64,000 nt of DNA from NCBI GenBank assembly GCA_000230955.3, contig CP007060.1:1-64000 (forward strand), written 5' to 3'. Positions within the stretch are counted from its first letter, which is position 1, and the number at the start of each line of letters is the position of its first letter. Below are positions 340-29,892 of the stretch, piece after piece. Origin of the DNA: Halobacterium sp. DL1 (lineage in GTDB: Archaea; Halobacteriota; Halobacteria; Halobacteriales; Halobacteriaceae). Both the position numbers and the translations under genes were made by a program. Under the pieces are notes generated by a model. That model saw only the letters and a program-made list of their open reading frames with translations, ran no database searches and was not told the origin of the DNA.

Positions 340-370
340 CCCCCACCCCTTCGTTTCGACTGGAACGGTG
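340..370 (-). repeat. Origin recognition box ORB1 (inverted arm)
   Basis: Read on the minus strand it contains the haloarchaeal box core GAAACGAAGGGG with a TTCCA block before it and a G-run after it. It mirrors the box at 548-577. Orc1 proteins bind such boxes with the winged-helix domain touching the inverted half-sites and the AAA+ domain touching the G-run. Confidence 0.88.
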
Positions 371-547: not shown

Positions 548-577
548 GTTCCACCTGAAACGAAGGGGTGGGGGGTT
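548..577 (+). repeat. Origin recognition box ORB2
   Basis: The sequence has the TTCCAC block, the GAAACGAAGGGG core and a run of six G after the T. It is the inverted partner of ORB1, about 180 bp away. It is the best match to the haloarchaeal consensus in the window. Confidence 0.9.
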
Positions 578-620: not shown

Positions 621-1030
621 ACCAGTCGACCAGTCTCAGAATTCCAGCTTCGTACGGTCGGGCTACTCCAAAGATCGGGAGCAGATCGAAGAATCGGTAG
701 GTCCTGCAACAGGCTGATACTGCACCGATGAAGTCGTAGTTTGGTCGAACAAATTAACCGCCATGTAGCGATTTTCGTTATCAGATCTCTGCCTTATCCC
801 GAGGAGCGGGCAACGTCCTTGTCAGTTCCTTACATGCTATGGATCGTGTCGAAACTGCTACACGGAGTACGGTCGACCTACAATCTGACCGCTCCAATTA
901 GCATCATCGAAACTTATTAGTCTCTCCTGTTTCCATTGGTTCATCTGCATCAACTGGAGCGTCTGTCGGGAAGCTGTCGCGGAACGCCGCAGTAACGGTC
1001 GTTTCCGGGCCGCTGTCTGGTGACGGCGCT

Positions 1031-1055
1031 CTCCACACGAAACGAAGGGGTATCC
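1031..1055 (+). repeat. ORB in the orc1 leader
   Basis: A CTCCACACGAAACGAAGGGG block ends 10 bp before the orc1 ATG. The nearest good TATA-like sequence (cttattag, about 911-918) would give a leader of over 100 nt spanning this box, so Orc1 binding here could feed back on its own transcription. That autoregulation is inference. Confidence 0.8.
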
Positions 1056-1064
1056 AATCGACAC

Positions 1065-2612
1065 ATGTCTGACGAACCGATGCCGGACGACCGACGCACG
1101 GCCGACCGCGACTTCGAGGTCGACCTCGACGACGTCCTCGTCGACGACGACGAGGGTGACGAGGGGCTCTTCGACGACCTCCTGAGCGGCGAACCGATAT
1201 TCGAGAACAAGGAAGTACTGCGCCCGTCGTACACGCCACACGAACTCCCCCACCGGAAGGACCAGATCAACAATATGGCGACGATTCTCGTCGCCGCGCT
1301 CCGCGGGGAGACGCCGTCGAACATCCTCATCTACGGGAAGACGGGGACGGGGAAGACCGCGAGCGCGAAGTTCGTGAGCCAGGAGCTCGAGCGCACCTCC
1401 AAGAAGTACGACGTCCCCTGCGAGGTCGAGTACATCAACTGCGAGGTCACCGACACCCAGTACCGCGTGCTCGCGCAGCTCGCGAACACGTTCATCGAGC
1501 AGAACCGCACGTTCGTCGACGAGCGCGTCGCCGACCTCCAGGACCTCCGCAACGAGATGGAGGCCGAGACCGACGCACCTGAAACGGGGGGGTTGCCGGG
1601 CGAGTTCGAGATGGGCGACGGGAGCGACGAGTCCAACAACGATGGCTCGGATCTCCGCGAGCAGTTCGACTCCGTCGAGGACGTCGACGACCGAATCGAG
1701 GAGCTCCTCCAGGAGAAATCGGAGATGGAGGAGGTCCCGATGACGGGGTGGCCGACCGACCGCGTGTACGCGACGTTCTTCGACGCCGTCGACTACGTCG
1801 AGCGGGTCGCCGTCATCATGCTCGACGAGATCGACAAACTCGTCGAGAAGTCCGGCGACGACACGCTGTACAACCTCTCCCGGATGAACTCCGAACTCGA
1901 CAACTCCCGGGTCTCCATCATCGGCATCTCGAACGACCTGAAGTTCACCGACTTCCTCGACCCGCGCGTGAAGTCCAGTCTCGGCGAGGAGGAGATCGTC
2001 TTCCCGCCGTACGACGCCAACCAGCTCCGGGACATCCTCCAGCACCGCTCTGAGGTGGCGTTCAAGGGCCAGGCGCTCTCCGAGGACGTCATCCCGCTCT
2101 GTGCCGCGTTCGCCGCACAGGAACACGGGGACGCGCGACGGGCACTCGACCTGCTGCGGACCGCGGGCGAACTCGCGGAACGCGACCAGTCCGACGACGT
2201 CACCGAGGAGCACGTCCGGCGCGCGCAGGACAAGATCGAACTCGACCGCGTGGTCGAGGTCGTGCGCACGCTCCCGACCCAGAGCAAACTCGTCCTCTAC
2301 GCCATCCTCCTCCTGGAGGACAACGGCGTCCACAACGTCAACACGGGCGAGGTGTACAACATCTACAAGACGCTCTGCGACGAGCTCGACGCTGACGTGC
2401 TCACCCAGCGCCGCGTCACCGACCTCATCAGCGAACTCGACATGCTCGGCATCGTGAACGCGGTGGTCGTCTCGAAGGGCCGCTACGGGCGCACGAAGGA
2501 AATCTCACTTTCGGTCCCCGTCGAGGAGACAGAGACCGTCCTCGAAGCCGACTCCCGCCTGAGCGACATCGAGGATGTCACCCCGTTCGTGCAGGCGCGC
2601 TTCGACAACTGA
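1065..2612 (+). CDS. orc1: Orc1/Cdc6 origin-binding initiator (AAA+)
   Basis: It recognises origin boxes and loads the MCM helicase. The 515-residue protein has an acidic N-terminal extension (about residues 1-45), Walker A GKTGTGKT (91-98), Walker B IMLDEID (251-257), and a C-terminal part fitting the winged-helix DNA-binding domain. It is longer than the usual 400 or so residues, owing to the N-terminal tail and an acidic, Gly/Asn-rich insert (about 165-205) between the Walker motifs; such inserts are common in haloarchaeal Orc proteins. The ATG at 1065 is preferred over a GTG at 1020 because the extra 15 residues are encoded by the origin box. ORBs flank it on both sides, so this is the origin-linked paralogue. 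Confidence 0.96.
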   Translation: MSDEPMPDDRRTADRDFEVDLDDVLVDDDEGDEGLFDDLLSGEPIFENKEVLRPSYTPHELPHRKDQINNMATILVAALRGETPSNILIYGKTGTGKTASAKFVSQELERTSKKYDVPCEVEYINCEVTDTQYRVLAQLANTFIEQNRTFVDERVADLQDLRNEMEAETDAPETGGLPGEFEMGDGSDESNNDGSDLREQFDSVEDVDDRIEELLQEKSEMEEVPMTGWPTDRVYATFFDAVDYVERVAVIMLDEIDKLVEKSGDDTLYNLSRMNSELDNSRVSIIGISNDLKFTDFLDPRVKSSLGEEEIVFPPYDANQLRDILQHRSEVAFKGQALSEDVIPLCAAFAAQEHGDARRALDLLRTAGELAERDQSDDVTEEHVRRAQDKIELDRVVEVVRTLPTQSKLVLYAILLLEDNGVHNVNTGEVYNIYKTLCDELDADVLTQRRVTDLISELDMLGIVNAVVVSKGRYGRTKEISLSVPVEETETVLEADSRLSDIEDVTPFVQARFDN

Positions 2613-2641: not shown

Positions 2642-2668
2642 GACACCCCTTCGTTTCTAGTGGAGAAC
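2642..2668 (-). repeat. ORB downstream of orc1
   Basis: On the minus strand this reads a TTCTCCACTAG block followed by GAAACGAAGGGGT. It sits 30 bp after the orc1 stop, so orc1 is bracketed by boxes in opposite orientation (1031 plus, 2642 minus). Confidence 0.83.
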
Positions 2669-4977: not shown

Positions 4978-6636
4978 GTGCCCCTAGAACCCCCGGTTCG
5001 GGTGGTCCGCGAACTCACAAGCCGGGGCTACAACGCCGACCGCGAGGCGGTGACGCTGCTCGCGGGTGCGGACGACCCGTCGGCTGCCGTCGAGCGAGCC
5101 GTCGACGAGGCGCCCGCAGACGCCCTGACGCTCACGGTCGACCACGTGCGGTCCGTGCTGGAAGACGACCTTACCGACGCCCGGACGGACGGCGCGAGCG
5201 AGGCCGCCGACGCGGCGGCTGACGCCTTCTCGCCGGACGCACAGACGCCGGATAAATCCAACTCTACCGACGCTACCTCTGGTTCCACTGAAGTAGAAAC
5301 GGAGACAAATCATACCACGGAAACAGGTTCTCCACTAGAAACGAAGGGGGTCGACGACACCAGCGGAACGACTGAGTCTGTCGGGTCCGCCGACTCACAG
5401 GACGCTCCGAATCCCGCTGGTGACCACGACGAGCGCAGTCTCGACATCGCGGGCGACATCACCGGAGAGTCCACTGGGACCGGCGAGTACAAGAACTTCG
5501 TCGCGACGTTCCGCGACCGCTACGACCGGCTCTCGAAGAAGCTCCGCGGGCGCGTCAACCACCGTCCGACGTCGGCGCTGGACTCGATGCCGGGTGGCAG
5601 CGACGCCGCCGTCGTCGGCATGGTCAACGACGTCCGCTCTACTGCGAGCGGCCACTGGCTCGTGGAACTGGAGGATACGAACGGCGTCTTCCCCGCGCTC
5701 GTGATGAAGGATAAGGACATCGCGGCGGACGTCGACGAACTCCTGATGGACGAGGTCATCGCCATCGAGGGGACGCTCTCGGACGACGGCGGCATCCTGT
5801 TCGCCGACGACATCTTCTTCCCGGACATCCCGCGGACGCACGAGCCGAACACCGCCGACCGCCACGTCCAGGCGGCGCTCGTCTCCGACGTCCACGTCGG
5901 CAGCCAGGAGTTCGCCGACGACGAGTGGTCGGCGTTCGCCGACTGGCTCCACACGCCCGAAGCCGACGCCGTCGAGTACCTCCTCGTCGCGGGCGACATG
6001 GTCGAGGGCGTCGGCGTCTACCCCAATCAGGACGAGGAACTCGACATCGTCGACCTCTACGAGCAGTACGAGACGTTCGCCGAGCGCCTCAAGGAGGTGC
6101 CCGGCGACACGGAGATCGTGATGATCCCGGGGAACCACGACGCCGTCCGCCTCGCGGAACCCCAGCCGGCCTTCGACGAGGAACTCCGCTCCATCATGAG
6201 CGCACACGACGCCCGGTTCACCGGCAACCCCTCCACGGTCACCGTCGAGGGCGTGAATATCCTGATGTACCACGGCGTCTCCATCGACGAAATCATCGCC
6301 GAACACCCCAGCGAGGACGTCTCCTACGACAACCCGCACCGGGCGATGGAACTACTCCTCCGGAAGCGCCACGTCGCCCCGCAGTTCGGCGGGCGCACCC
6401 GCCTCGCGCCCGAGGAAGAAGACTACCTCGTGATGGACGAGGTGCCCGACGTCTTCCACACGGGTCACGTCCACAAACTCGGCGTCGGCACCTACCACAA
6501 CGTCCGGATGGTCAACTCGGGCTGCTGGCAGCACCAGACCGAGTTCCAGCAGTCGGTGAACATCGACCCGGACGTCGCCACCGCGCCCATCCTCGACCTC
6601 GACACGCTCGACGTGACGGTCCGGAAGTTCGTCTGA
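4978..6636 (+). CDS. polD1: DNA polymerase D small subunit DP1 (3'-5' exonuclease)
   Basis: It is the proofreading subunit of the archaeal replicative polymerase PolD. The 552-residue protein has a helical N-terminal domain (1-70), an acidic Ser/Thr-rich linker (about 70-165), an OB-fold (about 205-285) and a calcineurin-like phosphoesterase domain with SDVHVGS (303 on), GDMVEG, PGNHD, YHGVS and GHVHK. The metal ligands look complete, so the nuclease is probably active. The start is GTG at 4978; upstream in-frame codons fall in the divergent promoter. The linker contains an origin recognition box and an unusually AT-rich stretch. Confidence 0.95.
   Translation: MPLEPPVRVVRELTSRGYNADREAVTLLAGADDPSAAVERAVDEAPADALTLTVDHVRSVLEDDLTDARTDGASEAADAAADAFSPDAQTPDKSNSTDATSGSTEVETETNHTTETGSPLETKGVDDTSGTTESVGSADSQDAPNPAGDHDERSLDIAGDITGESTGTGEYKNFVATFRDRYDRLSKKLRGRVNHRPTSALDSMPGGSDAAVVGMVNDVRSTASGHWLVELEDTNGVFPALVMKDKDIAADVDELLMDEVIAIEGTLSDDGGILFADDIFFPDIPRTHEPNTADRHVQAALVSDVHVGSQEFADDEWSAFADWLHTPEADAVEYLLVAGDMVEGVGVYPNQDEELDIVDLYEQYETFAERLKEVPGDTEIVMIPGNHDAVRLAEPQPAFDEELRSIMSAHDARFTGNPSTVTVEGVNILMYHGVSIDEIIAEHPSEDVSYDNPHRAMELLLRKRHVAPQFGGRTRLAPEEEDYLVMDEVPDVFHTGHVHKLGVGTYHNVRMVNSGCWQHQTEFQQSVNIDPDVATAPILDLDTLDVTVRKFV
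5328..5356 (+). repeat. ORB embedded in the polD1 coding sequence
   Basis: The sequence reads TTCTCCACTAGAAACGAAGG followed by a G-run, matching the box at 2642-2668 base for base over the TTCTCCACTAG and GAAACGAAGGGG blocks. It encodes part of the disordered linker of DP1 (about residues 117-125, in ETGSPLETKG). The 60 bases at 5281-5340 have only 27 G or C and use codons rare here (CTA, TCT, AAT). Confidence 0.8.
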
Positions 6637-28012: not shown

Positions 28013-28894
28013 TCAGTCCACGAGTTCCACGAGCAGCGCCTTCTGGGCGTGCAGCCGGTTCTCGGCCTGCTGCCAGACGACCGAGTTGGGGCCGTCGACG
28101 ACGCTCGAGGCCACCTCCTCGCCGCGGTGGGCGGGGAGACAGTGCATGAACACCGCGTCGCCGAGCAGCGCCTCGTCGACCTGAAACCCCTCGAAGGCGT
28201 CGAGGCGGGCCGCGCGCTCGTCCTCGTCGCCCATGCTCACCCAGACGTCCGTGTAGACCACGTCGGCGTCCGCCGTCGCGGCCTCCGGGTCGTGGCCGAC
28301 GGCGACGTCGCCGTAGGACTCGGCGCGCGCGAGGACCGACTCCTCGAACGGGTATCCCTCGGGCGTGGCGGCGCGCACGTCGTAGCCCATCATCGCCGCG
28401 CCGACGAGGAACGACGCGGCGACGTTGTTGGCGTCGCCGACCCACGCGACGGTCCCCGTCTCGCCGACCACCTCGCGGAGCGTCAGCAGGTCCGCGAGCG
28501 TCTGGGCGGGGTGGGCGTCGTCGGTCAGCCCGTTCACCACCGGCGCCCGGGAGTTCGCGGCGAGCTCCGTCAGGTCGTCGTGGTCGAAGACCCGGGCCAT
28601 CACGGCGTCCGCGTAGCGGCCGAGCACCTGGCCCGTGTCCGCCACCGGCTCGCCGTTCCCGAGTTGGATGTCGTTCTGGCCGAGGAAGACGGCGTGGCCG
28701 CCGAGCTGGGTCATCCCCACCTCGAAGCTCACGCGCGTCCGCGTCGAGGGCTTCTCGAACAGCATCGCGAGCGTTCGGCCCGCGAGCGCGGGGTGGGGGA
28801 TGCCGTCGGCCTGCGCGCGCTTCAGCGCAGCCGCGTCGTCGAGTACGCTCGCCAGCTGTTCGGGGGTCAGGTCGTCGATTGTCAGGAAGTGCAT
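28013..28894 (-). CDS. argF: Ornithine carbamoyltransferase
   Basis: It joins ornithine and carbamoyl phosphate to give citrulline. The 293-residue protein has the carbamoyl-phosphate motif STRTR (about 50-54), the HPAQTLADL segment, the ornithine-binding DVWVSMGDE and the HCLPAHRG motif with the catalytic cysteine. It is last in the long arginine operon; the start overlaps the end of lysK by 13 nt. Confidence 0.95.
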   Translation of the reverse strand: MHFLTIDDLTPEQLASVLDDAAALKRAQADGIPHPALAGRTLAMLFEKPSTRTRVSFEVGMTQLGGHAVFLGQNDIQLGNGEPVADTGQVLGRYADAVMARVFDHDDLTELAANSRAPVVNGLTDDAHPAQTLADLLTLREVVGETGTVAWVGDANNVAASFLVGAAMMGYDVRAATPEGYPFEESVLARAESYGDVAVGHDPEAATADADVVYTDVWVSMGDEDERAARLDAFEGFQVDEALLGDAVFMHCLPAHRGEEVASSVVDGPNSVVWQQAENRLHAQKALLVELVD

Positions 28895-29892
28895 AATCTG
28901 TCTGCCGCTGTCGTCAGTACTGCGACCCCGCGGTCGAAGTCCGCGAGGTCGATGCGTTCGTCCGGCGCGTGGTCGAGCGCCGAGTCGCCCGGGCCGTACG
29001 TGGCGACGGGGCAGTCCCACGCCGCCGCGTAGTGGTTCGCGTCGCTGGTCCCGGTCTTCCGGAGGTGCGTCGGCTCGCCGCCCGCCTCCCGGATGCCCGC
29101 ACGGAGCGCGCCAGCGACGGACGTCCGGGGGCTCGACACCACCGGTGGAATCGCCTCGCCCCACGTCACCGTCCCGTGGTCGGTGCAGTCCGCGACGGTC
29201 GCCCGCACGTCATCGGCCGTCGTTCCAGGCGGCAGGCGGAACTCCACTTCGACGGTCGCCTCCACGCGTTCGCCGTCGGCGGAGAGCCCTCCCTGGACGG
29301 AGACGGGCTTGACCGTCACCGACTCGAACACCGACTCCCCGGGCTCGAAGGCGGCCTGCACGCGCTCGGTCCACGCGGTGGCGTGCTGGACGGCGTTGGG
29401 CTCCGGCCGCGAGGAGTGGCCGCTCGCGGTCGTCACCTCGTAGTCGGCGCGCACGAGGCCGCGGTAGCCCAGCGCGATGGCGTCCCAGCCGGAGGGTTCG
29501 CCGTTCACCACGGCGTCCGGTTCCTCGCGGTCCGTCACGAGGTGGCGCGCGCCCGCCGAGGTGGTCTCCTCCTCGACGACGCCCGCGAACGACGCGCCGG
29601 TCTCGACGCTCGCCGCGGCCATCGACGCGAGCGGCCCGGTGGCGTCGACGCTCCCCCGACCCCAGAGCTCCCCCGCTTCCTCCCGCACCTCGATCTCCCC
29701 GGGGACTGTGTCGACGTGGCTCGTCAGGAGAACTGCGTCGTCGCCGGGCGCGCGGACGTTGCCCGCGTCGTCGGTCCACGCCTCGCGCCCGGCGGCCTCG
29801 AAGTAGTCCACGAGGACGCCCGCGGCCTCGGCCTCTCCACCCGAAACAGAGGGGGTAGAGACGAGCTCGTGGAGGAGTCCCCGGGGCGTCAC
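28882..29892 (-). CDS. lysK: LysW-ornithine/lysine hydrolase (M20 family)
   Basis: It releases ornithine (or lysine) from the carrier protein ArgW. The 336-residue zinc peptidase has SHVDTVPG (first metal ligand, with the aspartate), GRGSVDATGPLA, and EEETTSAGARHL with the catalytic glutamate pair. The final motif near GPGDSALDHAPDE carries the last histidine ligand. It sits between argD and argF; the GTG start overlaps argD by 4 nt. In the LysW pathway this enzyme replaces ArgE/ArgJ. Confidence 0.92.
   Translation of the reverse strand: MTPRGLLHELVSTPSVSGGEAEAAGVLVDYFEAAGREAWTDDAGNVRAPGDDAVLLTSHVDTVPGEIEVREEAGELWGRGSVDATGPLASMAAASVETGASFAGVVEEETTSAGARHLVTDREEPDAVVNGEPSGWDAIALGYRGLVRADYEVTTASGHSSRPEPNAVQHATAWTERVQAAFEPGESVFESVTVKPVSVQGGLSADGERVEATVEVEFRLPPGTTADDVRATVADCTDHGTVTWGEAIPPVVSSPRTSVAGALRAGIREAGGEPTHLRKTGTSDANHYAAAWDCPVATYGPGDSALDHAPDERIDLADFDRGVAVLTTAADRLCTS

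Follow-up and report, generated by a model that had tools for sequence, protein, structure and literature searches.

Within the reading frame of the gene for the small subunit of DNA polymerase D (polD1), Halobacterium sp. DL1 carries a sequence that resembles the origin recognition boxes (ORBs) of its own replication origin. Does this sequence serve the encoded protein, the nearby origin, or a separate function at the DNA level? The window analysed here is the 64,000-nucleotide stretch at positions 1 to 64,000 of contig CP007060.1, in which oriC1, orc1 and polD1 lie in a row. The features that bear on the question are as follows.

1065–2612, plus strand: orc1, Orc1/Cdc6 initiator and presumed binder of the boxes (Pfam PF09079 Cdc6_C, PF22703 Cdc6_lid)
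4978–6636, plus strand: polD1, DNA polymerase D small subunit, DP1 (Pfam PF04042 DNA_pol_E_B, PF00149 Metallophos)
5176–5430, plus strand: codons of the disordered DP1 linker (residues 67–151, AlphaFold pLDDT <50), host of the box pair
5329–5350, plus strand: F box, ORB TCTCCACTAGAAACGAAGGGGG, in frame, encoding SPLETKG, without the extended G-string, score 27.9 by position weight matrix (PWM)

The ORB core GAAACGAAGGGG was located at 5338–5349 (plus strand) and is read in the polD1 frame as GAA ACG AAG GGG (ETKG), so that the preliminary description of this DNA was correct in placing an ORB in frame within polD1. The F box scored 27.9 of 39.6 with the PWM (p=0.003 versus synonymous-codon shuffles). 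The resemblance already reported to a box near 2642 was borne out as well, as the 23-mer at 5328–5350 matched the minus-strand box at 2645–2667 at 22 of 23 positions; the chance expectation for a 23-mer with no more than three mismatches in the window was zero (100 shuffles). Of the eight exact copies of the core in the 3.16 Mb genome, five fell within the first 5.4 kb. The linker that hosts the box was described as disordered, and probably is, based on an AlphaFold model from a 20-sequence alignment in which residues 67–151 had pLDDT values of ∼22–32. An AT-rich island had also been proposed, and the GC content of 5245–5356 was indeed 50.9%, versus 67.7% for the remainder of polD1. The figure given for the 60 bases just before the box (27 G+C) was corrected to 30 for those preceding 5328, with the lowest 60-bp window (26 of 60) starting at 5282.

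polD1 was compared among 12 other Halobacterium genomes, 21 named haloarchaeal records and another 100 genomes of haloarchaea. An ORB profile was built from 246 distinct sites within the 2.2 kb that precede orc1 (i.e. oriC1 boxes, with polD1 boxes excluded); it favours its core because it was seeded with the core allowing one mismatch. The stretch scanned with this profile was the linker that joins the N-terminal domain to the OB/phosphoesterase part. The usual state of the haloarchaeal linker was found to be a pair, consisting of a minus-strand box followed by a plus-strand box with their G-ends facing outward. The best two sites were spaced 56 bp apart (start to start) in 96 of 128 distinct linkers and 53 bp apart in a further 12, and an inverted pair at one of these spacings was thus present in 108 of 128. 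The F box scored at least 15 in 101 of the 128 linkers, and codon phase was nearly invariant (phase 0 for the plus box in 126 and phase 1 for the minus box in 118). In 110 of 112 loci from ten haloarchaeal families, one box or more reached p≤0.01 by codon resampling; families represented by just one to three loci weigh little here. Of 13 Halobacterium genomes, 12 retained the box in the linker, and it was likewise kept across haloarchaeal families, while the linker protein around it could not be aligned. The inverted partner, which the preliminary description had missed, is also recognizable in the window.

5273–5294, minus strand: R box ACTTCAGTGGAACCAGAGGTAG, the inverted and decayed partner; the F box follows at 56 bp (start to start)
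5295–5328, plus strand: spacer between the boxes, 34 bp, sequence not conserved

The R box of the window sits inside the proposed AT island, lines up with the R boxes that other species have kept intact, and exceeded both codon controls (p=0.020 by codon permutation, p=0.007 by codon resampling); a sister genome (L059) has a better-preserved copy. The pair was absent from one Halobacterium genome (L070) and from a Haloquadratum-like locus (L168). Since it was also absent from several reduced-genome basal Halobacteria, and since 40 loci from other Halobacteriota classes, with mostly short linkers, gave negative scores, the pair arose within Halobacteria.

Mean best scores over the 128 linkers were 22.7 for the plus and 15.0 for the minus strand, falling to -0.1 and -6.1 when synonymous codons were permuted and to -5.3 and -11.9 when they were resampled from each species' own codon usage. 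Codon fixation was counted in 86 aligned pairs. Where the ORB needs it, CCA was used for 77/77 prolines (expected 4.7), GTT for 58/58 valines (4.0), ACT for 56/56 threonines (3.5), GGA for 65/66 glycines (5.3), GAA for 86/86 glutamates (24.4) and TCT for 34/36 serines (1.0); these counts come from related sequences and are not independent events, the remaining linker nonetheless being unalignable. Codons of the spacer were far less constrained than those of the boxes. The codon controls and the fixed rare codons strongly support the earlier suggestion that DNA sequence, and not protein only, is under selection here, and on this comparative evidence the polD1 boxes are almost certainly a real DNA-level element.

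Two explanations at the level of the gene product were weighed against these data. The boxes could be a by-product of the codons of a conserved DP1 peptide motif (DPSVS...SPxETKG) serving, for example, in protein docking. ETKG and DPSVS-like peptides do recur between species, and an M20 peptidase contains a comparable PSVSG stretch, but rare synonymous codons are fixed in the boxes, and neither codon-shuffle control reproduced the observed scores. Furthermore, both strands fit one independent profile in different phases, and because the boxes lie on opposite strands and in different frames no single peptide motif accounts for both. With the linker itself predicted to be disordered, we consider a peptide motif very unlikely, and as the sole cause it was rejected on the codon evidence. 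The inverted repeats could also form a hairpin in the polD1 mRNA, and their arms are complementary in many species. The arms did not covary, however, with 17.19 of 22 positions identical versus 17.16 when shuffled between species; a weak trend was confined to the three variable positions -3 to -1 (3% of shuffles), and boxes are also retained singly, as in the window. The other ALTERNATIVES, an mRNA hairpin, was rejected for this lack of covariation over the arms, and is in our estimation very unlikely as well.

The pair was essentially specific to polD1, as far as sequence searches can tell. Boxes scoring at least 20 occurred at 3.53 per kb in the linker and 1.64 per kb upstream of orc1, versus 0.076 per kb elsewhere in the loci, and none was found in the rest of polD1 (166 kb). 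A strict pair pattern, in which the spacer was left free over nine lengths, was run on 172 whole genomes and matched in 23 of them, once per genome and always over 76 bp. By coordinates, 21 of the 23 matches were placed directly before the catalytic part of polD1; the other two matches were in the draft genomes G096 and G103.

Comparison with the origin itself separates two classes of box. The true origin class is represented in the window by the two boxes of oriC1.

345–366, minus strand: left ORB of oriC1 with the GGGGTGGGGG string, score 37.7
548–569, plus strand: right ORB of oriC1 with the GGGGTGGGGGG string, score 38.6

The polD1 boxes share with haloarchaeal oriC1 ORBs the 22-bp sequence TCCA-N3-GAAACGAAGGGG and the inverted, outward-facing arrangement; they differ in lying within coding sequence, in their 56-bp spacing, and in having neither the extended G-string nor an AT-rich unwinding element. 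With the extended G-string defined as at least four G among the five bases at +13 to +17, it was present in 5 of 164 polD1 boxes versus 206 of 311 oriC1 boxes, in none or one of 69 boxes at the orc1 start (two scans), and in none of 25 boxes behind orc1. The box in polD1 had been called full-length, which is not correct, as it lacks this halophile string. In Haloarcula hispanica, mutation of the G-string abolishes replication from oriC1 (PMC3936714).

An accessory replication origin within polD1, or an extension of oriC1 as previously proposed, would account for inverted ORBs that lie close to oriC1 in most species, and for the local GC dip in the window. Against it stand the missing G-string and the 56-bp spacing, where oriC1 pairs are mostly 200–280 bp apart. 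The 34-bp spacer had a mean GC of 0.62 over 89 species, versus a minimum of 0.29 among windows upstream of orc1, and no AT-rich unwinding element between the boxes was conserved across species. The AT-rich island is mostly a local dip particular to this species. The pair also stays in place when oriC1 is elsewhere: the G-string pair of oriC1 lies ∼1.5 Mb from polD1 in G101, ∼153 kb in G107 and ∼156 kb in G036, and the polD1 boxes persist in all three. Only such genomes with a distant oriC1 are informative on independence from the origin. Natronomonas and similar genomes were also considered as proof of independence, a case weakened by polD1 lying 6–194 kb from orc1 there. A copy of the origin in polD1 was rejected for the absent G-string, the short spacer and the lack of a conserved AT-rich element, and an accessory or extended origin is highly improbable.

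Origin and initiator gene are separated in the three genomes with a distant oriC1, an exception to their usual adjoining in haloarchaea. No orc1 match was found at the oriC1 loci examined among G101, G036 and G107. Pairs of the oriC1 type with G-strings lie far from orc1 at L278 (8722/9038, ∼1.35 Mb), L280 (8604/8940, ∼160 kb) and L281 (8561/8874, ∼147 kb). In the two loci examined at the orc1 start of split-origin genomes (L279 and L282), the box without a G-string was kept.

Boxes of this second class also flank orc1 in the window.

1030–1051, plus strand: orc1-promoter ORB, G-string-less class, score 35.4, with its end 13 bp ahead of the orc1 ATG
2645–2666, minus strand: ORB just 3' of orc1, nearly the same in sequence as the polD1 F box and without the extended G-string

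Of 111 loci, 69 had an ORB directly before orc1; it was invariably on the plus strand and ended 12 bp (median) ahead of the start codon. Many haloarchaeal transcripts have little or no leader. With such short leaders an ORB at this position would overlap the core promoter, which suggests that it is likely a site of orc1 autoregulation. The simplest reading would be that ORBs without the G-string are regulatory Orc1 sites, with orc1 and polD1 as two conserved targets.

The linker boxes match the oriC1 profile and are very probably recognised by Orc1. We propose that Orc1 would bind both boxes of the pair, probably cooperatively, and that the complex formed without the extended G-string would not start replication. 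Bound Orc1 would instead act as an intragenic operator, by roadblock or feedback, tying polD1 expression to the level of free Orc1, and a parallel arm would be provided by the G-string-less ORB on the orc1 promoter. In our opinion the sequence data are best read as a non-origin Orc1 operator, orc1 and polD1 together making up a small Orc1 regulon, though we hold this reading with no greater assurance than an even balance allows, and we are similarly divided as to whether regulation of polD1 is the main role of the pair. That Orc1 regulates its own gene and also, through a pair of sites encrypted in the coding sequence, DP1, and so links initiation to replisome supply, is put forward somewhat more tentatively. 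Counting against an operator, the pair lies ∼350 bp inside polD1, away from the promoter. The decay of one box in the window counts against it too, as does the lack of the pair in L070, L168 and the reduced-genome basal lineages.

The main rival to the operator is titration, in which the pair would serve as a datA-like depot of Orc1 close to the origin, or as a parS-like organiser, and limit free Orc1 near oriC1. Its location in polD1 would then be incidental, polD1 having been a neighbour of orc1 since the haloarchaeal ancestor, and polD1 was indeed 6–194 kb from orc1 in the genomes checked. Outside oriC1-orc1 and polD1, 58 of 65 strict ORBs in 29 genomes were within 150 kb of orc1 (6.6 expected), a clustering whose tail probability takes no account of relatedness among the genomes. 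These dispersed ORBs lie inside genes or at their 3' ends, which is odd for promoters. For such G-string-less ORBs in or behind unrelated genes near orc1 a titration or domain role fits better, and they are possibly Orc1 depot or chromosome-domain sites. There is also a precedent in Haloarcula, where oriC2 is restrained by an ORB cluster behind cdc6E, titration being the probable mechanism (PMC3936714, PMC4010727). Each dispersed site, however, is a lone box beside which no 56-bp partner was found, so that the polD1 pair is still special. Titration does not need a fixed spacing, two boxes would add little capacity, and G101 keeps its boxes with 1.5 Mb between polD1 and the oriC1 pair. We regard titration as a possible but rather unlikely explanation of the pair, which may also titrate Orc1 in addition to acting as an operator.

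Several known systems resemble the operator proposed here in part. Sulfolobus oriC2 contains a mini-ORB, a shortened ORB (PMC4010727), but Sulfolobus mini-ORBs lie in a working origin, and the polD1 boxes keep the GGGG and are without the halophile extension only. Non-origin ORBs near an initiator gene are known from oriC2D of Haloarcula hispanica, downstream of cdc6E, where Cdc6E is titrated (PMC3936714); that site is an intergenic cluster for another initiator, whereas polD1 has two boxes at fixed spacing within a gene. Control of transcription by an Orc1-family protein has a precedent in Sulfolobus Orc1-2 (PMC9738581), a non-initiator paralogue of the DNA-damage response, whereas here the binder would presumably be the main initiator at an intragenic site. 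Binding of an initiator outside the origin is likewise seen at datA of E. coli, which titrates DnaA (compared in PMC4010727), although with a different initiator and no homology to the polD1 pair.

A survey of haloarchaeal origins covered only the intergenic regions adjoining orc/cdc6 genes (PMC3528665), and we found no report of ORBs in polD1 in the open-access literature. Non-origin initiator sites have been little studied in archaea. Here a disordered protein linker hosts a DNA code throughout an archaeal class, and the presence of an initiator-type site inside a replicative polymerase gene makes it testable whether the initiator controls replisome supply. As the site consists of synonymous choices it could be erased without any change to the protein, which opens the way to a clean genetic test in Haloferax or Haloarcula.

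Individual ORBs elsewhere were recorded in Halobacterium. In the window, one lies at 29836–29854 in the M20 peptidase gene (28882–29892, minus strand), where it encodes a STPSVSG stretch with rare codons and recurs in three other Halobacterium genomes. Another, recurrent in the genus, is found ∼7.5–8.3 kb on the far side of oriC1 in an ABC-transporter ATPase-like coding region (L258 3520, chromosome ∼2840021, with equivalents in L260–L270). A third is found a short distance 3' of both a hel308-like helicase and the next small gene (L259 4676, L261 4459), 40–62 kb from oriC1 in several Halobacterium genomes. The hel308-like reading frame at L277 3–3545 encodes 1181 aa and contains an intein-like insertion.
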